Source of the DNA: Rhodohalobacter mucosus | Lineage (GTDB): Bacteria > Bacteroidota > Rhodothermia > Balneolales > Balneolaceae | Reading direction: 5' to 3' | Length of the DNA: 64,000 bases | Assembly: GCF_003150675.1 (NCBI RefSeq) | Contig: NZ_QGGB01000012.1 | Span: 1-64,000 of the forward strand | In this document: positions 27,305-38,277 of the stretch, piece after piece | Layout of the letters: each line of letters starts with the position of its first letter | How positions within the stretch are numbered: the first letter of the stretch is position 1 | The notes under the pieces: generated by a model | Told to the model about the DNA's origin: nothing | Database searches by the model: none | What the model saw: the letters and a program-made list of their open reading frames with translations, nothing else | Program-made: the position numbers and the translations under genes

Positions 27305-27856
27305 ATGAAAAAGCTGATTAAATTTATATTTGCCGCCGTTTCCATCTTTCTGTTGCTCACATCCTGTGGTCCAAGGGGACCCGTAGGACCAGAGGGGCCA
27401 CGCGGACCTCAAGGACCAGCCGGACCTACCATTCTACCCACATCTTTTGAGTTTGAAGTGGACCTGCTGCAGTCCAACGGCTTCGAGTTCTTCCAGGATA
27501 TCCCCTCACAGATTGAGATGCTGGAATCGGATGTGGTTCTCGCATTTGTGTTCGAGGATTATATCGAAGAGCAGGACCTGGAAGTATGGAGAAAGCTGCC
27601 GGTCATCGAGTTTACTCAAAACGGTACACAGCTGCTCGACTACGATTTCACCTTTGTGGATCTCAGAATATTTCTGGATGCCAATTATCCGCTGGGCGCT
27701 GCAGACGAGTATGCGGGATTGCTGATTCGGGGCGTGCATGTTCCTGCCGACTTCGTGAATGCAGGCAAGATGAAGAGCGCGAAGGATGCAGACACCTTCC
27801 ACGAGCTGGAGTCGCTGCTGGGTGTGGAGATTCAGGATCTTGGAAAAATAAACTAG
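27305..27856 (+). CDS. lipoprotein with short collagen-like stretch
   Basis: The 183-residue protein has a lipoprotein signal (lipobox LLTSC, Cys21). Directly behind the anchor, six Gly-X-Y triplets (about 22-41: GPR, GPV, GPE, GPR, GPQ, GPA) form a mini collagen helix. The remaining 140 residues are a mixed globular domain with FEFEVDLL and VWRKLPVIEF. Collagen-like triplets this close to the lipid could trimerise the globular heads on the membrane. The function is unknown. A terminator-like hairpin lies 240 bases downstream. Confidence 0.85.
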   Translation: MKKLIKFIFAAVSIFLLLTSCGPRGPVGPEGPRGPQGPAGPTILPTSFEFEVDLLQSNGFEFFQDIPSQIEMLESDVVLAFVFEDYIEEQDLEVWRKLPVIEFTQNGTQLLDYDFTFVDLRIFLDANYPLGAADEYAGLLIRGVHVPADFVNAGKMKSAKDADTFHELESLLGVEIQDLGKIN

Positions 27857-27888: not shown

Positions 27889-28011
27889 CTCCCCTCCTTT
27901 TCAAGGAGGGGTCGGGGGTGGTTAGACAGAATTTTTACTGATGATTGAGTACGGAATTAGTTGATAGGCCTTGTTCAACCACCCCTAAATCCCCTCCTTG
28001 AAAAGGAGGGG
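27889..28011. repeat. inverted hairpin pair without gene (pair C)
   Basis: A 35-base hairpin element (27889-27923: CTCCCCTCC-loop-GGAGGGG plus a GGGGGTGGTT tail) and its inverted, slightly diverged copy (27977-28011) are 53 bases apart. The elements match those bounding the DUF559 cassettes at 32.9 and 34.7 kb. Confidence 0.9.
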
Positions 28012-28100
28012 ATTTAATTAATCACCTATTTTTAACAGACGGCAACCATCAGAGATGAGACGCTGGCTTGACGGGGAAAACTGAGAACACCAGAGCAAAG

Positions 28101-28205: not shown

Positions 28206-28327
28206 CTCCCCTCCTTTGTAAGGAGGGGCCGGGGGTGGTTACAGATATTTGAACATGATACAAACTGAAAAATTTGCTCATAAACCTGACTCAACTACGC
28301 CTTCATCCCCTCCTTGAGAAGGAGGGG
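28206..28327. repeat. inverted hairpin pair without gene (pair D)
   Basis: The left element 28206-28240 is intact; the right one (28293-28327) keeps the hairpin but its tail has decayed. End-to-end length is nearly the same as pair C, though the spacers differ. The rest of 27857-28411 holds only the hairpin at 28101 and a short CGCGGAGG-type repeat at 28145-28172. Confidence 0.85.
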
Positions 28328-28411
28328 ACTTTTCGCTGCCAATGTCACTGATTTTTAAATCGAACTAACCTTCACTTTAACCAACAAACCGGATTCTATA
28401 CCTCAATCAAT

Positions 28412-29657: not shown

Positions 29658-32600
29658 TTAAACTTTCTCTGCGCTCTCAGCGTCTCCGCGGTGATCCTTC
29701 TCCGCGGCCTCTGTGGCTCCGCGGTGAATAATCTCTTTGGGTTCCGCTTTCTCCCAGATGCCCATTGTGAGGAGGATCAGCGTGAGGCTGGTGCCCAGGC
29801 CCCAGAGTACCACCACGGCCAGGTCGGTCCAGAAGGCGTTGGTGCCGATCAGTATCAGCGGGAGCAGTCCGCCCATGGTCGTCAAGGATGTAATCAGCAC
29901 CGCACGCATCTTGTTGCGGTACACCTTCACCCAGCTTCGAAGTCCGTGGATACCCGCCGCCCGGCAGCGCTGTTTTTCATGAATGAGCAGAATGGAGTTG
30001 TTCACCACCACGCCCACGGCAAGCAGCGTGCCCGCGATTGCACCCTGGTCGAAATTGATGTCATGGAACAGGGCTCCCGCCATCACCCCGATCAGACTCA
30101 TCGGTATGGCCAGCAGAACCACGAGCGGATCGCGCCAGCTCTCCAGAAGGGCCGAAACAATCATCCAGACGCTCAGAATGGTCAGCATCAACAGCAAAAG
30201 GTAGTTCTGCAATTTCTCATCCTCACCCCACGACCAGAAACCGGATCCAAACTGAATGGACGCACCCACCGGAACGGGAACCTCCTCCAGCACCGATTCG
30301 ATGTAGTTGGAAGCAAGCCGGGGCGGACCCAGAAAATCGACCGTGAGGGTGCGGCTGTAGGACTGATCCTCCCGAATGATCTGCGACATGGTTTTCTCGC
30401 GGGTCAGGTCGGCAATCTCGTCAATCTTGAAAAGCTTCTCACCGGATATCCGTGCCCGGTCGAGGAAATCGGATTCGTACTGTGTCTGTGCCTGGTTGGT
30501 GCCGATCAGATACATCCGCTCACCGTTCAGCTCCACCTGTCCGCGCACGTTGGTCGGGTTGATATCGAGCTGGAGCGACTCCAGCACATCGCGGCGGTTC
30601 AGATCGCGCATCGAGAGCCGCTCATCATCCAGATTCAGTACATACTGAAACAGATCACTTCGGCCCCACCCCACGCTGTGGATGTCCACCTCCTGCACGC
30701 GCTGATTCTGCATCAGCCGTGCGGCGATGTCCTCTGCCAGAAGCAGCAGCTCATCATAGGAGAAACCCCTGAGGGTTACGCGCTGTCCGGAGATGCCTCC
30801 TCCGAATCCGGTGCTGTGTCCGTCGCCCAGGCCGCTCACCGAGATGCCGGAGTTCCCGATTTTGGTAGCCAGAAAGATCGCTTCCGAATAGAACTGGTAC
30901 GGTTCTGTACGGTACAGATATTCATCCTTGAGATGGAATTGCAGGCGTGCACCGGAATACTCCGAAATATCCGCTTCAAAATAGGTAAACGCCTCCTGGT
31001 AGGGGATGGCGGTAAGTTCAAAATCCCGCACCATCTTGTCGATCTCTTCAATCGGTGTGCCCTGGGGAGTCCGGATACTCACAAAAATACGCTCCCCTTC
31101 AGATCGGCTCCAGGGTGTTCCGAAGTAGGTTTCATTGAAGAATTTATAGGTGAGTCCGCCCACCCAGGGATCGATATTGCTCCGATTGTCAAAGTAAGTG
31201 CGCGTGAACTCTGGCCACCAGGTCTCCTCCCAGTCCGGTTCGGTGATCGTAAAAAGCGGAATGCCGAACAGCGCCACGACGCCGACATAAAACAGCCAGC
31301 GAAGACGGTACCGAATATAAAAACCGCGGATCATGACCCGGTTTAAAATCTTGCTCACTTTTCTCTTGAAGGCCCCATCCCGTTTAACCGATTCCGATTG
31401 CACCAGCCAGATCAGTGAATAGGGAATCCAGCTCAGTGCGATCAGGACCGATGACACGAGGGTGAGGGTGAGTGCGACGGCAAGCGGCACCAGGAAGAGC
31501 TGGAGCTCCTCCATCGCAAAAAAGAGCGGAATGAAGATCCCCACGGTGGTAAGCGTGCTGCCGAATACCGGCACCAGCGTGTAGGGCAGCTCTTTTCGAA
31601 TGTGATTCAGCCTTTCGGACCGACCGGCCGGCAGTTTCGGGTTGAGCTGCTCAAACACCACAACGGCATTGTCGATGATCATACCAAGCGCAACCGTGAG
31701 CCCTGCAAGGGTCAGTACATTGAGGGTATAATTCATAAAAAAGAGAATGCTCAGGCTCATGAGCAGGGAGAAGATGATACTGCCCAGAATCACAAAAGGC
31801 GCCCTCAGGCGGCGAATAAAGAGCAGCAGGATGATAAATACAAACAGCAGGCTGAATGCCGACTGGTACTGGAGGTCGCCGAATTGAGCGCGCAGGTCGT
31901 CGGTGGAGTCCCGTTCCAGCTGGATGGTGATATCGGGCGGAAGATTGGATGAAATACGCTCCATTTCCGTCCGCACCTGTTCCGCAAGGCCCATCGCGTC
32001 CGCACCGCTTTCGCGAACAAAAATGAGCGTGAGCGCCGGCTTGCCGTTCAACCTCTTGATGCTTTTAACGGGATAGTCCTCTATCCCTATCTCTGCGATG
32101 TCGCCAAGCAAAATCTGTCGGCTGCTGCCGGGAACGGTCAGCTTCATCTGCCGGATATCGCCGATAGACTCGAATTGCGGGGGAATAAGCATGCTCATCC
32201 GGCTGCTGGTTTTCTCCACAAATCCGCTGGATCGCCAGTTCAGCCGTTCCCTTATCGTGTTCATGATGGAGGATGAATCAAATCCGTAGCGCTCGAGAAG
32301 GGTGGTATTGAAGCGCAGGGTCAGGGCCGGATCCATCGCCCCCTGAATCTCTACGTCTGCCAGCCCTTCCAGTCCCAGCAGCTGCAGGCGGATCTGCTGA
32401 ACGGCCAGCTGGTAGAGGTCGTTGGTGGGCCGCTCACCGCTCACCGAGTAGGCCATGAACGTTTCCTGGTCCTGCAGCTCACGCGGAATCGACCGGCTGA
32501 TACGAGGCTGCAAAATCTGTGGCGGGAACTCCTCCCGGAGCCCATAGAGATACTCCTGCAGCTCAAGCACCCTGTACTCCACGGGTGTTCCCTCTTCAAA

Positions 32601-32873
32601 GGTGATGGTGACGCTCGAGCGTCCCTCCTGCGACACCGACCGGATTTTTTCCACATTACGAAGGCGCGTGGCCACAGACTCCACCCTGCGGGTCACCTCC
32701 TGCTCTATTACCTCAGGGGAGGTGCTGCCCCAGCTGTAACTAACCGTCACCGACGGCAGACGCAGGTCGGGCGCCATCTCCACGGGGATGTTCATCCACG
32801 CCACCACGCCCACCAGTGCGATGAGCATGTAGCTGAGGGAGATGAAATATTTTCGGCGGAAAATCTCGCGCAT
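29658..32873 (-). CDS. RND efflux permease (second of the operon)
   Basis: The 1071-residue inner-membrane pump has the RND layout: one helix, a large periplasmic loop, helices 2-6, then the repeat. Helix 4 carries one proton-relay aspartate (GMIIDNAVVVFEQ), where many drug pumps have two. The adaptor gene lies upstream across a repeat cassette. The last 23 residues are two copies of an HRG(A/D)xE-AEK word. They are encoded by the GCGGAG-type intergenic repeat, so the C-terminus has been extended by repeat DNA. No outer-membrane channel gene is in the window. The substrate is unknown. Confidence 0.93.
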   Translation of the reverse strand: MREIFRRKYFISLSYMLIALVGVVAWMNIPVEMAPDLRLPSVTVSYSWGSTSPEVIEQEVTRRVESVATRLRNVEKIRSVSQEGRSSVTITFEEGTPVEYRVLELQEYLYGLREEFPPQILQPRISRSIPRELQDQETFMAYSVSGERPTNDLYQLAVQQIRLQLLGLEGLADVEIQGAMDPALTLRFNTTLLERYGFDSSSIMNTIRERLNWRSSGFVEKTSSRMSMLIPPQFESIGDIRQMKLTVPGSSRQILLGDIAEIGIEDYPVKSIKRLNGKPALTLIFVRESGADAMGLAEQVRTEMERISSNLPPDITIQLERDSTDDLRAQFGDLQYQSAFSLLFVFIILLLFIRRLRAPFVILGSIIFSLLMSLSILFFMNYTLNVLTLAGLTVALGMIIDNAVVVFEQLNPKLPAGRSERLNHIRKELPYTLVPVFGSTLTTVGIFIPLFFAMEELQLFLVPLAVALTLTLVSSVLIALSWIPYSLIWLVQSESVKRDGAFKRKVSKILNRVMIRGFYIRYRLRWLFYVGVVALFGIPLFTITEPDWEETWWPEFTRTYFDNRSNIDPWVGGLTYKFFNETYFGTPWSRSEGERIFVSIRTPQGTPIEEIDKMVRDFELTAIPYQEAFTYFEADISEYSGARLQFHLKDEYLYRTEPYQFYSEAIFLATKIGNSGISVSGLGDGHSTGFGGGISGQRVTLRGFSYDELLLLAEDIAARLMQNQRVQEVDIHSVGWGRSDLFQYVLNLDDERLSMRDLNRRDVLESLQLDINPTNVRGQVELNGERMYLIGTNQAQTQYESDFLDRARISGEKLFKIDEIADLTREKTMSQIIREDQSYSRTLTVDFLGPPRLASNYIESVLEEVPVPVGASIQFGSGFWSWGEDEKLQNYLLLLMLTILSVWMIVSALLESWRDPLVVLLAIPMSLIGVMAGALFHDINFDQGAIAGTLLAVGVVVNNSILLIHEKQRCRAAGIHGLRSWVKVYRNKMRAVLITSLTTMGGLLPLILIGTNAFWTDLAVVVLWGLGTSLTLILLTMGIWEKAEPKEIIHRGATEAAEKDHRGDAESAEKV

Positions 32874-32900: not shown

Positions 32901-33436
32901 CTCCCCCTTAAAAAAGGGGGGCGGGGGGATGTTCATCATTCTAATATCAATACATTTAACATAACATCATCATGAAATGAACTGTAAAACTTTATTCTCT
33001 AAAAATCCCTTTTGATTCTTCATAATCCCTAACCCATCCTTCTATTGACATTAATACATTATTCATGTCTTTCTTTACTTCAATGTCATCAAATCTGAGG
33101 ACAGTCAATCCAATTGATTCAAGCCAGTGCTGCCGTGTCATATCTTTTTGAAAGGATTCTTCATTGTGCGAATCGCCATCAATTTCAATTACCAGTTTTA
33201 GTTTGTTGCAGAAAAAATCAACAATAAAATTACCTATAGGCTTTTGTCTCAAAAAACAATATCCCAACATCTTATCACTCTTGATCTCTTCCCAAAGGAG
33301 AATTTCTGCTAGAGTCGAGTTATTTCGAAGTTTTCTAGCAAGTGGTTTGAGTTTTGGGTTGTAATAAATTTTCATAAGTACATTCAGTTCAACACCAAGA
33401 TTAAACACCCCTCTAAATCTCCCCTTGTTAGGGGAG
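32901..33436 (-). mobile_element. hairpin-bounded DUF559 cassette A
   Basis: A 33-base hairpin-plus-G-tail element (32901-32933) and its inverted counterpart (33404-33436) bound a single endonuclease gene. The ends share architecture (CTCCCC hairpin, then a G-run and TGTT) but have drifted in sequence. The cassette fits precisely between the adaptor stop and the second permease start. No transposase, phage gene or target-site duplication was recognised. Confidence 0.7.
32992..33375 (-). CDS. DUF559 (Vsr-like PD-(D/E)XK) endonuclease-domain protein
   Basis: I use the ATG at 33375 (MKIYYNPKLK), as the upstream extension enters the terminal repeat. The 127-residue protein has the DUF559 blocks in order: NNSTLAEILLWEEIK, YCFLRQKPIGNFIVDFFC and LKLVIEIDGDSH, holding the putative catalytic residues Glu (AEILLW), Asp (VDFF) and Glu-x-Asp (EIDGD). 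The C-terminal part (GLTVLRFDDIEV) completes the Vsr-like fold. It may nick or cut DNA. The gene sits alone between inverted hairpin repeats inside an efflux operon and is transcribed in the operon direction. Confidence 0.88.
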   Translation of the reverse strand: MKIYYNPKLKPLARKLRNNSTLAEILLWEEIKSDKMLGYCFLRQKPIGNFIVDFFCNKLKLVIEIDGDSHNEESFQKDMTRQHWLESIGLTVLRFDDIEVKKDMNNVLMSIEGWVRDYEESKGIFRE

Positions 33437-33469
33437 ACTGTTATCTTCTCACTTCTACCTTTTCACTTT

Positions 33470-34558
33470 TCACTCTTCCACCTCCTCCATCACCATCTGA
33501 CCCGCCATCCGCGGCCTCACATTCTGCAGGTGGCTCAGGGCGAAGTGCCGGTCAACGGCTACTGTATCGCCGGGGGCGATCTGTTCATGGTTGATGATGG
33601 CCCACTCGGATGTCTGATACTCGGGATCCACGTAGACCCACTCCACGCGTTCACCAATCAGCTTGAACAGCAGGGTTCGTCCGCCGTCACGCTCCAGGAT
33701 GGCCGACCGCGGTACGCGTGCAATGCCTTCATGCTGCTCAATCTGTATTCTTCCTTCCACGGTCATGCCCGGCCGCAGTGCACGGTCGCTGTTATCCACT
33801 TCCACGACCACCTGACCCGTTTTGGTTTCCGTATTCACCACCGGCGAAAGCGCCCTCACGCTGCCCTGTTTCCGGATACCGGAGGGTGTTGAAAGATCCA
33901 CGGCCATGCCGCGGCTCAGGCGGTTGAGTTCCGCTTCGAGCACATCGAATCGAATCAGTACCGTGGTGTCGTCGATGAGGCGTCCAAGTTCGGCACCTGC
34001 ACCAATATAGGCGCCGGGCGTGATTCGTTCGGGTACCGACAGTTCACCGCTGAATGGAGCCAGAATAGTGGTGTACGACAGATCCAGCTTGGCCCGCTCC
34101 AGGGCTACCTCGGCCGCGGCCAGTCCCGTGCTGATGCGCACCATCCGATCGCCGTCCATCTGCTCAGAATCATTTCTGCCCTGCCGCTGACGGGTTTCAA
34201 TGTTATACGCCACCAGGGCCGACTCATACTCATTCTGTGCCTGCAGCAGCTGGTATTGCCATTCTTCGTCGTCAAAAGCGAGGATTACCTCTCCCTCCTC
34301 CACTCGATTGCCGTCATCCAACTCGCTTTCCGTAATAAACCCGCTGATACGGGGACGAATTACGATCTCGCGCAGCGGCTCCACCACCCCCTGGCTTTCG
34401 ATGTAGACATTAAGGGGCTCGTCATCCGCCATCGCAAAAATGACGTCGGGCCGGATATCCACATCATCCGGCCGTTCGGGGCGTTCAGGATCTTCGGCGC
34501 CGGAGCATGCGGTAATTATTAATAAGATTACAATTGATGAGTACGTTGATAATTTCAT
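33470..34558 (-). CDS. RND periplasmic adaptor (membrane fusion) lipoprotein
   Basis: The 362-residue protein has a lipobox (IITAC) and the adaptor layout. It has a biotinyl-lipoyl half (PRISGFITESELDDGNRVEEGEVI), an alpha-hairpin (about 100-160), and the second lipoyl half (LSYTTILAPFSGELS). The beta-barrel (VLIRFDVLE) and membrane-proximal domain (VPRSAILERDGGRTLLF) follow. It links the permeases to an outer-membrane channel. One adaptor for two permeases recalls MdtABC, where two different permeases form one pump. Cassettes lie on both sides of the gene. Confidence 0.93.
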   Translation of the reverse strand: MKLSTYSSIVILLIITACSGAEDPERPERPDDVDIRPDVIFAMADDEPLNVYIESQGVVEPLREIVIRPRISGFITESELDDGNRVEEGEVILAFDDEEWQYQLLQAQNEYESALVAYNIETRQRQGRNDSEQMDGDRMVRISTGLAAAEVALERAKLDLSYTTILAPFSGELSVPERITPGAYIGAGAELGRLIDDTTVLIRFDVLEAELNRLSRGMAVDLSTPSGIRKQGSVRALSPVVNTETKTGQVVVEVDNSDRALRPGMTVEGRIQIEQHEGIARVPRSAILERDGGRTLLFKLIGERVEWVYVDPEYQTSEWAIINHEQIAPGDTVAVDRHFALSHLQNVRPRMAGQMVMEEVEE

Positions 34559-34650
34559 TGTCGGTGTTTGAGTGAAAAGGCAGAAGTGAAAAGTGAAAAG
34601 GGTTTCTCGTGGGTGTTAAAGTTTTAAGAACTTTCATTCGGATTAGGGTT

Positions 34651-35163
34651 CTCCCCTCCTTTCCAAGGAGGGGCCGGGGGTGGTTCCTTCAAATTTCTTC
34701 ATTTATATCAATCTTACATTCACTGGCACGTTCTTTAAAAAGATCTTCCAGATATACGATTACACTCTCATAATCCTCTTCAAAATCCAGATTTTCAATT
34801 CTGATAACTTTGATTCCTTCAGCCGTTAGAAATTCATCTTTCATCCTGTCTTTTTTGACCGTCTCTTTGAAATAATGGACATCACCATCAATTTCTATAG
34901 CCAGTTTCAGTTGCGGGCAGTAGAAATCAAGTATGTAATTCCAATTCCATACTGTCTCCTCATCTTAAAACCCAACATCTTCCTGCCTTTCAGGTCATTC
35001 CAAAGACGAACTTCCCATTTGGTCATGTGATTGCGCAGATACTGGCGCTGTTTCTTTGTTTTCTTCGGATTTAACATTTGGTCATTATCACAAAATCTTC
35101 TTTGAGAACGTGACTGTGGTCAATTCTCAACCACCCCCGGCCCCTCCTTGGAAAGGAGGGGAG
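34651..35163 (-). mobile_element. hairpin-bounded DUF559 cassette B with perfect 35-bp inverted ends
   Basis: The 35-base end at 34651-34685 is the exact reverse complement of 35129-35163. Each end is a CTCCCCTCC/GGAGGGG hairpin with a G-rich GGGGGTGGTT tail pointing inward. The inside holds one frameshifted DUF559 gene. Perfect ends with a broken gene suggest recent insertion or gene conversion of the ends. The cassette fills the gap between the first permease stop and the adaptor start. Confidence 0.8.
34689..35077 (-). pseudogene. DUF559 endonuclease gene, one-base frameshift
   Basis: From the ATG at 35077 the frame reads MLNPKKTKKQRQYLRNHMTK, then WEVRLWNDLKGRKMLGFKMRRQYGI-type DUF559 sequence up to about base 34952. 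There a single missing base shifts the frame and gives a premature stop. In the next frame the protein resumes as NYILDFYCPQLKLAIEIDGDVH and continues to a TGA at 34689. All catalytic blocks are otherwise kept (VRLW Glu, DFYC Asp, EIDGD). The stop lies 3 bases inside the left terminal repeat. A sequencing error would restore a full gene of about 130 codons. Confidence 0.85.
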
Positions 35164-35193: not shown

Positions 35194-38100
35194 TCATATC
35201 ACTTCTGCCTTTTCACTCCCCTTTTCCACCCACCCGAAAATTACCGGAATCAGATAAAGCGTCAGCGTGGTGCTGGTAATCATGCCTCCCATCAAAGCAA
35301 GGGCCAGGGACTGCCGGAAGGCGTAACCCTCCCCGAATGGAATTAACATGGGAACAAGGCCCAATATTGTGGTAACACTGGTCATCACTACCGGACGAAA
35401 CCTGTGCCGGCCGGCCAGTTCAATGGCTTTACCAAGGTTTCCGGTATCTTCGAGGTAGCGGCGCATAAAATCCACCTTCAGGATGGAGTCGTTCACAGCA
35501 ATACCGGTGAGTATCAGTACGCCCATAAACGACATCGCATTAAGCCCCGTACCGGTAATCCACATGATCAGCAGCGACCCCACCCAGGCAAACGGCACGG
35601 CCAGGATGATGATCAGCGGATACTTCAGGTTTTCGAACTGGATAGCCAGAATGATGTAGATAATCAGAATACTGAGCAGCAGCAGGGCGGCCATGTCGGT
35701 CATCAGCCCCTGCACCATCAGCGCGTTGCCCGCCACCTGCACCTCGGTTCCGGTTGAACGGATAAAATCGCGCACCGCGTCCATGGTTTCGCCCCGGTTC
35801 CACCACCACTCGGCAAGGGTCCAGTCGGCCACATAGCTGAGCACTGGCGTCTGGTCCACCCGCTCCAGCTGTTCGGGCTCTCTTGCCCGCTCAATTTCGG
35901 CAATATAGCTGAGTGGAATTTCACGGCTTCCCAGGCGAAGCGTGATATCGGTTGGGTCATATATCTGCCCCTGCTGGCCCAGAAGCCGGATGCTGATTCG
36001 TTCATCCTCGCGTGCCCAGTCGCTCACAAAACTGCCTCGGGTTACCGACTCGAGGTAGCGGATCACCTCCTGCTCGCTGATACCCAGCTGCAGCATGCGG
36101 TCGATCCGGAATCGCAGGTTCCAGATATCCACCTCCTGCTCGTACTGCTTTCGAAACTCCACTGCCAGGCCCGCATCGCGCAGCGACTGTTCCAGGCGTC
36201 CGGCTTGTCGCTCACTCTCCTGGCGGTTCATTCCGATCAGGCGAAACAGCACGGGCGGCTGATCGGCCCCTATCAGCGCACTCCAGCTTTGGGTATCCGA
36301 TACGGGCTCCACGGTCCACTCCGGAAAATCCTGATCAAAATCAGTCAGGATGGCGGCGGCCTCTTCGGCGTCCTCATAACCGTTGACGGGCACCGTGACG
36401 GTAAACTTATTCAATCCTTCCCGTGCCAGATTCGCCAGGTTGGTCTGATCGGTGTACCCGCCCTCCATCTGGATGCGTCCGCCGCCGAGGCCCGCATTTT
36501 GCAGGCGGAGCAGGAGCGCATCGGACGCCTGACGCGTGGACGGTAGCGATGTGTTTCCGGGCAACTGTATGCGCCATGTAACCAGCGACGGTTCGTCCTC
36601 AGGCAGCATCGATTTGGGAACCACCGTAAAGGCATAACCCGCCGCAGCTACCAGCAGCAGTGCGCCCATAAACATCCATAAAGGACGTTTCAGTACCCGC
36701 TGCAGGCTTCCCTCATACCGCTCCAGCAGGTTGTCGAAAAATGCGCGCGTGTTGAGCTGGCCATCGCCTTTTATTCCGTTTTCATCATCTTTCCTTTTAC
36801 GGCGTTCCAGAATCTGAACAACCAGAACCGGCAGAATCACCAGGGCCACCATGAGGGAGGCCAGCAGGCTGATGGAAAGTGTGTAGGCCTGATCCTGGAA
36901 AAAAGCCCCCTCAAATCCGCCCAGGAAGATGAGCGGCAGAAAGACGGAGATCGTTGTAAAGGTTGATGCCGTTACCGCGAGGGCAATCTCTTTGGTACCC
37001 CTGGATGCTGCGCGCTTCACGGTTTTTGTAAGCGGCATGTGCCGGTTGATGTTTTCGAGAACCACGATGGCGTTGTCGAGCAGCAGACCGATCCCCAGGG
37101 TGAGTCCGCTCAGCGAAACGATGTTGAGCTGGATGTCGGATACGTACATCACAAAAAAGGTGAGAAAGATGGAGACCGGGATGGCCACGCCAATCGTAAA
37201 CGGGGTGCGCACATCATTCAAAAAGGTGAACAGAACAAAAAAGGCAAGAACGCCGCCGATCAGAAGCGTCTGAAGCAGGTTGGAGATCGCTTTGCGGATA
37301 AAGGTAGCGTCTTCGCGCAGTATCTCCATGCTGATGTTGGGATAGAGTTCACGCATCTGCTCCAGCAGCGGCATGAGGGTGTCGAACACCTCCACCGTAT
37401 TGCTGCCAAACTCCTTTTTCACGAGCAGATTGAGCACTTGCTCGCCCTGAAGGGTTGCGAAAGAAGTGGGATCGGTCTCTGCCAGCTCTACTTCGGCAAT
37501 TTCACCCAGAGTCAGGATGCGACCCTCTCCCAGCAAGGTGAGCGGCATCCGTTCGAGCTCTTCCAGCTCGCGTATGCGGCTCTCTATCTTGAGCGAGTAG
37601 CGATACCAGCCGTCGCGGATCTCCCCGCTCGGACTCATGATATTGGCCTGCTGCACCAGGTTCTGCACCTGACCCAGCGACAGCCCGAATCGGTCGATCT
37701 CCCGCGGCAGGTAGCGGATCTGCACTTCCGGCTCTACGGCCCCCACCGTAACCACCTGCGCAATGCCTTCGGCTTGTTCAAGGCGCCTCGAGAGCACCTG
37801 CTCGGCCCACCGCTTCAGCGCAAGGCGGGTTTCAAAATCGGCATTGGGACGGTCTTTCGAGGTGACCGCAATCACCGCGATCGGTTCATCGGCCGTGGTA
37901 TTGAATATGAGCTGCGGACGCGAGGCCTGGTCGGGCATGATGTACTGAACCTGATCCAGTTTCTCCCGTACGTTGAGGAATGCGAGGTCCATGTTGTGGC
38001 CCCAGCGGAAACTAAGGTAGATCACGCTCTGCCCCTGCCGGGCAAATCCGTGCACCTGCTCGATGCCGGGAATGGTGCTCAGCACCGCCTCCAGCCGGTC

Positions 38101-38277
38101 GTTGATCCGGTTTTCAATCTCGCGAGGCGACGCACCCTGCCAGTCGGTACGCACCACCAGGTTGGGCGAATCCACGTCGGGCAGCAGATCCACCGAAAGC
38201 TCATTGAGTGCGAGCCCGCCAAAAATGAAGGCAGCCAGGATCAGGATAATAGCGGTTATGGGTCGGTTTAGGAGCAA
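35194..38277 (-). CDS. RND efflux permease (first of the operon)
   Basis: The 1027-residue pump subunit has the RND plan, helix 4 with a single aspartate (GIGLLLDNAIVVLENINR) and a second-half counterpart (GIAVNDSILKVDFMRR). The best start is a TTG at 38277, because an in-frame stop lies two codons upstream. The N-terminus therefore begins almost directly at helix 1 (LLNRPITAIILILAAF), missing the usual few leading residues. The DNA just upstream is repeat material, suggesting erosion of the 5' end. It is the promoter-proximal gene of the efflux operon. Confidence 0.92.
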   Translation of the reverse strand: MLLNRPITAIILILAAFIFGGLALNELSVDLLPDVDSPNLVVRTDWQGASPREIENRINDRLEAVLSTIPGIEQVHGFARQGQSVIYLSFRWGHNMDLAFLNVREKLDQVQYIMPDQASRPQLIFNTTADEPIAVIAVTSKDRPNADFETRLALKRWAEQVLSRRLEQAEGIAQVVTVGAVEPEVQIRYLPREIDRFGLSLGQVQNLVQQANIMSPSGEIRDGWYRYSLKIESRIRELEELERMPLTLLGEGRILTLGEIAEVELAETDPTSFATLQGEQVLNLLVKKEFGSNTVEVFDTLMPLLEQMRELYPNISMEILREDATFIRKAISNLLQTLLIGGVLAFFVLFTFLNDVRTPFTIGVAIPVSIFLTFFVMYVSDIQLNIVSLSGLTLGIGLLLDNAIVVLENINRHMPLTKTVKRAASRGTKEIALAVTASTFTTISVFLPLIFLGGFEGAFFQDQAYTLSISLLASLMVALVILPVLVVQILERRKRKDDENGIKGDGQLNTRAFFDNLLERYEGSLQRVLKRPLWMFMGALLLVAAAGYAFTVVPKSMLPEDEPSLVTWRIQLPGNTSLPSTRQASDALLLRLQNAGLGGGRIQMEGGYTDQTNLANLAREGLNKFTVTVPVNGYEDAEEAAAILTDFDQDFPEWTVEPVSDTQSWSALIGADQPPVLFRLIGMNRQESERQAGRLEQSLRDAGLAVEFRKQYEQEVDIWNLRFRIDRMLQLGISEQEVIRYLESVTRGSFVSDWAREDERISIRLLGQQGQIYDPTDITLRLGSREIPLSYIAEIERAREPEQLERVDQTPVLSYVADWTLAEWWWNRGETMDAVRDFIRSTGTEVQVAGNALMVQGLMTDMAALLLLSILIIYIILAIQFENLKYPLIIILAVPFAWVGSLLIMWITGTGLNAMSFMGVLILTGIAVNDSILKVDFMRRYLEDTGNLGKAIELAGRHRFRPVVMTSVTTILGLVPMLIPFGEGYAFRQSLALALMGGMITSTTLTLYLIPVIFGWVEKGSEKAEVI

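Follow-up and report, generated by a model that had tools for sequence, protein, structure and literature searches.

An RND operon of Rhodohalobacter mucosus raises the question of how a small nuclease gene, enclosed by inverted hairpins, came to occupy both of its intergenic gaps. The window, a stretch of 64,000 nucleotides, belongs to a source genome (G000) of 17 contigs and 3.9 Mb. An earlier note, made from the sequence alone, had read the two cassettes as a selfish element laid out like REP repeats and their RAYT enzyme, with an unrelated nuclease fold. The analysis indicates that the cassettes are likely to be a small selfish mobile element, composed of a lone DUF559 nuclease gene and triplex ends and accompanied by gene-less miniature derivatives.

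Two cassettes in one RND operon

Both gaps of the minus-strand operon hold one DUF559 cassette each (Table 1), as had been proposed, and the operon genes are identified by ACR_tran and HlyD_D23 matches. The broken cassette is likewise as described, with perfect inverted ends of 35 bp and a frameshift that divides the profile match of its gene into two pieces. The other cassette has the intact gene claimed for it, with a likely start at 33375 and a GTG alternative at 33408; the alignment with homologues begins at residue 12 of the GTG ORF. Its ends, which had been called drifted, belong instead to two other hairpin families, both obeying the triplex rule described below. In a single-protein scan, the best named relatives of its protein are from Balneolaceae. 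The gene-less hairpin pairs, previously placed at 27889-28011 and 28206-28327, are real. The hairpin occurs in the source genome in 43 copies at up to 3 mismatches, compared with 1 for a reversed control, and all four DUF559 loci of that genome are flanked by hairpins of the same general type. No Rfam families were detected within the window.

Table 1 Features of the RND operon, its cassettes and the nearby gene-less pairs (window positions).
Feature	Position	Strand	Remarks
Gene-less pair of triplex ends	27889-28013		B end 27889-27923 (TCG linker); A end 27977-28013 (ATTTA linker)
Second gene-less pair of triplex ends	28206-28328		Inverted repeats
RND transporter, operon hosting both cassettes	29658-32873	-	ACR_tran match
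Intact cassette, whole	~32902-33437		Two end families differing from those of the broken cassette
Intact cassette, 3′-side end	32902-32936	+	Class II triplex motif CCCCCTT(AAAA)AAGGGGG-GCG-GGGGGAT; third strand obeys the mirror rule
Intact DUF559 nuclease gene (Vsr-like PD-(D/E)XK)	32992-33375	-	PF04480, E=1.5e-32
Intact cassette, 5′-side end	33407-33437	-	Class II triplex motif TCTCCCCT(AACA)AGGGGAGA-TTT-AGAGGGGT; 8/8 triplets obey the mirror rule
Periplasmic adaptor gene, between both cassettes	33470-34558	-	HlyD_D23 match
Broken cassette, whole	34651-35163		Inverted ends
Broken cassette, one end, B type	34651-34685	+	Class II triplex motif CCCCTCCTT(TCC)AAGGAGGGG-CCG-GGGGTGGTT
Frameshifted DUF559 gene of the broken cassette	34692-35077	-	HMM pieces 34758-34940 and 34928-35062
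Broken cassette, other end, B type	35129-35163	-	Exact inverted copy of 34651-34685
Second RND transporter	35194-38277	-	ACR_tran match

A second kind of cassette was observed in the same RND gaps (L053, 2645-2989; L054, gap 2). It carries 23S_rRNA_IVP genes (four-helix, PF05635, E=4.6e-37) bounded by inverted GTGAAAAGGCAGAAGTGAAAAG-type repeats, and is possibly a parallel small selfish unit. Repeats of this type are kept around the adaptor gene in the window (33445-33482, 34563-34600 and 35199-35218). Elsewhere in the window, positions 27305-27856 comprise a lipoprotein-like ORF of 183 aa with a collagen-like GP-rich stretch and no Pfam match.

Cassette ends as class II triplex motifs

The G-rich tail of the ends covaries with the hairpin across the many end families that were compared. 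Purine arms and tails are paired as AAGGAGGGG with GGGGTGGTT, AGAGGGG with GGGGTGT, AGGAGGG with GGGAGGT, AAGGGGG with GGGGGTT or GGGGGAT, AGGAGAGGG with GGGTGAGGT, and AAGGGAGGGGG with GGGGGAGGGTT; each tail mirrors its arm, placing G against G and either A or T against A. This mirror rule fits perfectly in 38 of 61 informative ends, compared with a mean of 8.3 and a maximum of 16 when tails were reassigned, and in 42 of 66 unique arm/third-strand combinations, and it is valid across hairpin families in several phyla. A direct-repeat reading of the tail, which fits 10 of the 61 informative ends, was rejected. The hairpin-plus-G-tail ends of the earlier note are amended accordingly to hairpins with a third strand following the mirror rule.

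Judged by sequence, the mirror rule matches the third strand of class II intrastrand DNA triplexes, which is antiparallel and of the purine-motif kind, and the cassette ends are predicted to be capable of folding into three-stranded DNA. The ends, of approximately 30-37 nt, have the class II order of pyrimidine arm, loop, purine arm, a linker of 3-5 nt and third strand. The unit boundary is marked by a conserved T before the C-tract (T|CCCC), and the inner tail is GGGGTGGTT or a variant of it. The ends are inverted and of two types, A and B. One unit normally has an end of each type, as in E. coli: among the Balneolaceae matches listed, 33 of 36 convergent pairs are A+B (p=8e-8), the three exceptions being B+B and including the broken cassette of the window.

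Triplex-forming Box C/PIT/TM repeats were discovered in E. coli in the 1990s. Because their tails obey the class II triplex mirror rule, the cassette ends are assigned to these published repeats. Class II intrastrand triplex repeats, for which the names Box C and PIT elements were in earlier use, were described by Holder et al. in 2015, with triplex formation by TM_ECO demonstrated in vitro by CD and NMR, and with A+B inverted pairing in 5/5 pairs of E. coli TM motifs (PMC4666352). The same authors linked the motifs to genome instability, and their survey of the surroundings of the repeats 'never found ... remnants of transposases or integrases' (PMC4666352).

Several further arrangements of these motifs were observed. 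Triplex hairpins form tandem arrays in steps of approximately 100-150 bp, with adjacent units sharing hairpins (G000:C10:255233-255752; L209 flanks; L255, 2400-4000), and in L209 a repeated spacer lies between the arrayed units. Some ends lie within or bear extra palindromes, namely 18-bp outer inverted repeats in L028 and an enlarged hairpin in L057, which may reflect target preference or hairpin growth. In Neisseria gonorrhoeae (L250, 2484-3178), a DUF559 gene is followed by a tandem repeat of approximately 281 bp with triplex motifs in both orientations.

Association of DUF559 genes with triplex ends

The link between nuclease and hairpins, which was the main point of the earlier note, was measured as enclosure in relatives and is borne out. 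Among the 99 related genomes surveyed, 51 contain PF04480. An inverted repeat scoring at least 14 between the flanks is present at 60% of 100 stand-alone DUF559 loci, compared with 0.27% of 1500 control sites, which were positions taken from the same DNA. A stricter triplex-end finder recognized both ends at 57 of 162 DUF559 loci (0.8% of controls) and at least one end at 113 of 162 (8.9% of controls). With this finder, approximately one third of the stand-alone DUF559 genes have no recognized triplex end, which counts against the element reading; decay, domestication or a different kind of gene may lie behind these cases.

Genome-wide motif scans were run without reference to DUF559. The Balneolaceae scan gave 36 convergent motif pairs among the matches listed, with rows for four of ten genomes. 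Within these matches, 32 pairs are spaced by 63-194 bp and hold no gene, and 4 are spaced by 456-465 bp, all four enclosing DUF559. Eight Flavobacteriaceae genomes yielded 31 motifs of another family, compared with 0 in a reversed control, and all seven convergent pairs enclose DUF559 in the same orientation, always with the AGAGGGG end 5′ of the gene and the AGGAGGG end 3′ of it. Taken together, 11/11 convergent pairs 400-520 bp apart among the matches listed enclose DUF559, in agreement with the enclosure by inverted hairpins that had been claimed.

Large DUF559 fusion proteins (845-1276 aa) in the eight Flavobacteriaceae genomes showed no convergent motif pairs. More widely, DUF559 domains fused into frames of 845-1484 aa mostly lack paired triplex ends (L040, L042, L081; G099:C1:444081, G104:C10:10802), and these fused frames form a separate branch, probably of defence type.

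The ycjD locus of E. coli

The hairpin repeats had been regarded as familiar from Bacteroidota-like genomes; in fact, the ends span several phyla, including the ycjD locus of E. coli. The DUF559 gene ycjD and no. 9 of the published TM_ECO motifs (PMC4666352) are separated by approximately 200 bp, a closeness that by rough estimate would arise by chance at approximately 0.2% (18 TM sites in 4.6 Mb). The sapF-ycjD-fabI stretch matches 3359 of 5426 E. coli genomes over at least 80% of the query. A good triplex motif is found on one side of ycjD only, which counts against the element reading in E. coli. The locus was also considered as a clean empty site and rejected, the other sapF-fabI allele being an efflux segment, and such a swap has been reported likewise (PMC12817139). 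E. coli therefore provides an association, not an empty site.

Depending on the E. coli lineage, the interval between sapF and fabI (L248/L259) holds either ycjD and its Box C motif or the eef efflux operon, and part of the ycjD 3′ end is repeated there beside a degenerate motif.

The DUF559 nuclease

The protein of the intact cassette passes the curated cut-off of PF04480 with 112 bits against 20.6. E35, D64, E75 and D89 are invariant, and D77 and H81 nearly so. The AlphaFold model (pLDDT of 90.7) points to a PD-(D/E)XK fold of the Vsr/EDxHD homing-endonuclease type. The nearest solved structures are the DUF559 structure NGO0050 (3hrl) and the homing endonuclease I-Bth0305I (3r3p; E=2e-7 by profile and 2e-4 by Foldseek), followed more weakly by Vsr (1cw0). 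Kosinski et al. had already placed YcjD near Vsr (PMC1189080). Membership of a defence system was examined with PADLOC and rejected, the search returning no more than weak partial matches to the nuclease domain.

The median dN/dS is 0.09 over 59 pairs, and the DUF559 protein is therefore maintained by purifying selection. On the DUF559 tree, which is built on few columns and has many unresolved forks, 20 changes of end type were observed, compared with a minimum of 43 with shuffled labels. When labels were permuted within genomes, the 19 changes observed compared with a mean of 26.2 and a minimum of 20 in 500 trials. Host identity alone therefore does not account for the end type, which is inherited along with the nuclease.

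Site states and gene-less derivatives

Elements of the Flavobacteriaceae (L195, L209 and others) align from hairpin to hairpin over 455-460 bp at 75-82% identity, with unrelated flanks. Orthologous sites were sought for empty counterparts, as the earlier note had suggested, and one was found full, gene-less and empty in different, distant species. Between one pair of orthologous genes, four genomes carry the full cassette, Marinirhabdus gelatinilytica has 16 bp, and Ulvibacter antarcticus has a gene-less pair, its site being matched through the left-hand gene only, with the unit directly behind that gene. The gaps of the RND operon similarly vary across species, being full, decayed, gene-less or short. 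A further candidate, the L195 site in Hyunsoonleella ulvae, was rejected as an empty site, its synteny being broken.

Gene-less units in L056, L058 and L060 keep 34-133 bp of DUF559 3′ sequence. The Ulvibacter unit (L276) also looks derived, with a short and weak inner stretch (7/500 shuffles as good). At least some gene-less pairs therefore derive from cassettes and not the reverse; these remnants and the unrelated flanks support the selfish-element reading, with gene-less derivatives, advanced in the earlier note. Of the two outcomes that the earlier note had named as refuting, chance-level proximity of DUF559 to the hairpins and a lack of empty-site orthologues, neither was found. Many cassettes lie at old, vertically inherited sites, such as the RND gaps and the Flavobacteriaceae site, which counts against reading them as evidence of recent activity. 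For 59 cassettes, whose junctions are not base-exact and whose species are too distant for a finer comparison, target-site duplication showed no excess over permuted flanks.

A proposed element and its rivals

The association, the triplex rule, the A/B asymmetry, the discrete boundaries, the site states, the co-inheritance of ends and nuclease and the purifying selection, all computed here, are best accounted for by the selfish mobile element proposed above. We infer that DUF559 is its mobilizing enzyme, reading the folded triplex and cutting near T|CCCC in a transposition pathway. The nuclease would recognize the ends of its own family, most probably once folded in supercoiled DNA or a single strand, where the third strand would occupy the major groove in antiparallel orientation, and would nick beside the conserved boundary. 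Such a nick would start excision or copying into intergenic DNA, without target duplication. Internal deletions would leave end pairs of 60-190 bp that could be mobilized in trans, and these would be the orphan Box C/PIT/TM repeat pairs. Since the Box C/PIT repeats have been known without a mobility gene, DUF559 is a strong candidate for the spreading enzyme, and the first such candidate. A broader reading is advanced tentatively: the cassettes might represent a new mechanistic class of transposable element, in which a lone PD-(D/E)XK (DUF559) nuclease recognizes intramolecular DNA triplexes as ends, and which would be the origin of Box C/PIT/TM repeats across bacteria.

The main rival is a homing-like route through repair, in which DUF559 cuts gene-less triplex pairs or cassette-less alleles and repair copies the gene in, using the ends of 30-37 bp as homology, while the pairs spread by other means. 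The closest characterized enzyme is indeed the homing endonuclease I-Bth0305I (PMC3943268), one site occurs in both full and gene-less forms, and the absence of target duplication fits repair-based copying. We nevertheless regard this route as unlikely, given the DUF559 3′ remnants carried by gene-less pairs (weaker in L276), the presence of elements at unrelated sites, and an end type that follows the nuclease lineage within genomes.

Movement in trans by a RAYT/IS200-type (HUH) transposase, with DUF559 as cargo, is suggested by the REPIN/RAYT-like layout and by PF01797 genes, which occur in 59 of the 99 relatives and number nine in the source genome. Of the RAYT-type Y1_Tnp loci that were sampled, some (L148, L154, L157 and L163) are bounded by hairpins of the kind GTCCCTGACGGGAC with GGGTAGAA next to it, unlike the DUF559 ends, and at others no ends were found; the CCCC/GGGG hairpins of the four scanned families occur at 0 of 25 Y1_Tnp loci tested. 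Moreover, a cassette with triplex ends on both sides occurs in genome G010, which is 98% complete and gave no PF01797 hit, and different end types track DUF559 lineages inside one genome. The differing ends of the sampled Y1_Tnp loci and the G010 cassette make such movement very improbable. Membership in REP/RAYT was rejected accordingly, the enclosed gene being DUF559 and not a Y1 HUH transposase, and the hairpin foot shows the T|CCCC boundary in place of the GTAG tag of REPtrons. The REP/RAYT comparison of the earlier note thus holds as an analogy of paired hairpins around an unrelated, PD-(D/E)XK fold, but not as membership, RAYT-type genes coexisting in these genomes with ends of their own.

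It is hardly credible that DUF559 is instead a host-serving nuclease, acting on triplexes or hairpins to process or repair them and retained close by through selection, with no mobility. Strong purifying selection, the reported link of the motifs to genome instability (PMC4666352) and the Vsr-like repair fold would suit it, but it leaves unexplained the enclosure by inverted A+B ends, whose spacing is fixed at 400-520 bp, the discrete boundaries at unrelated sites and the matching of end type to nuclease lineage inside one genome. A chance association with hairpins that serve as ordinary terminators, or that are repeats of unrelated origin, would agree with their being strong and intergenic; this reading, now of negligible probability, is refuted by control rates of just 0.3-0.8% and by the nuclease gene held in all 11 long pairs among the matches listed. 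Purine-motif triplexes cannot form in RNA (PMC4666352), and the third strand would therefore have no role in a terminator. The selfish element with DUF559 as its enzyme remains the reading that we prefer.

Novelty and implications

Box C/PIT/TM repeats, DUF559 and REPIN/RAYT have all been described before; an element joining triplex ends with a lone PD-(D/E)XK nuclease would be new, if the nuclease has the role proposed here. A search of open-access full texts found no paper joining DUF559, ycjD or COG2852 with triplex repeats. Repeats that enclose a nuclease gene across phyla, with co-inherited ends, make the spread of Box C/PIT/TM directly testable, including through ycjD of laboratory E. 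coli K-12. If true, the proposal would give a function to a widespread family still named DUF559, would add a class of selfish element built on a fold that also serves repair, restriction and homing, and would provide the first known mobile element using a DNA triple helix as recognition structure.

Comparison with known systems

The element fits none of the established classes, either by its enzyme or by the structure of its ends. It resembles MITEs in its short non-autonomous units with inverted ends, which are internal-deletion remnants of a full element; it differs from MITEs and DDE insertion sequences in having structured, putatively triplex ends and no DDE transposase, and in that no target duplication was seen. 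Vsr/EDxHD homing endonucleases such as I-Bth0305I provide the closest solved fold apart from the DUF559 structure and are likewise single selfish nuclease genes. To our knowledge, neither terminal repeats nor gene-less derivatives have been described for the free-standing members of that group. Unlike homing endonucleases in introns or inteins, the DUF559 cassettes lie between genes.

With REPIN/RAYT and TIRtron (PMC3116915, PMC3733652) the cassettes share paired inverted hairpins of approximately 100 bp in length, gene-less derivatives and one small nuclease gene between the same ends. In contrast to REPIN/RAYT, the enzyme is PD-(D/E)XK and not HUH, there is no GTAG or CGTC tag, the ends are predicted to form triplexes, and the RAYT genes of these genomes have separate ends. 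The closest likeness of the ends is to Box C/PIT/TM, with the same class II order (Y arm, R arm and reverse-Hoogsteen strand), linkers of TTA or CCG type, inverted A+B pairing and one E. coli copy beside ycjD. Those repeats were published without a mobility gene, whereas here inverted pairs enclose DUF559, and their end sequences comprise diverse families that follow the nuclease lineage.
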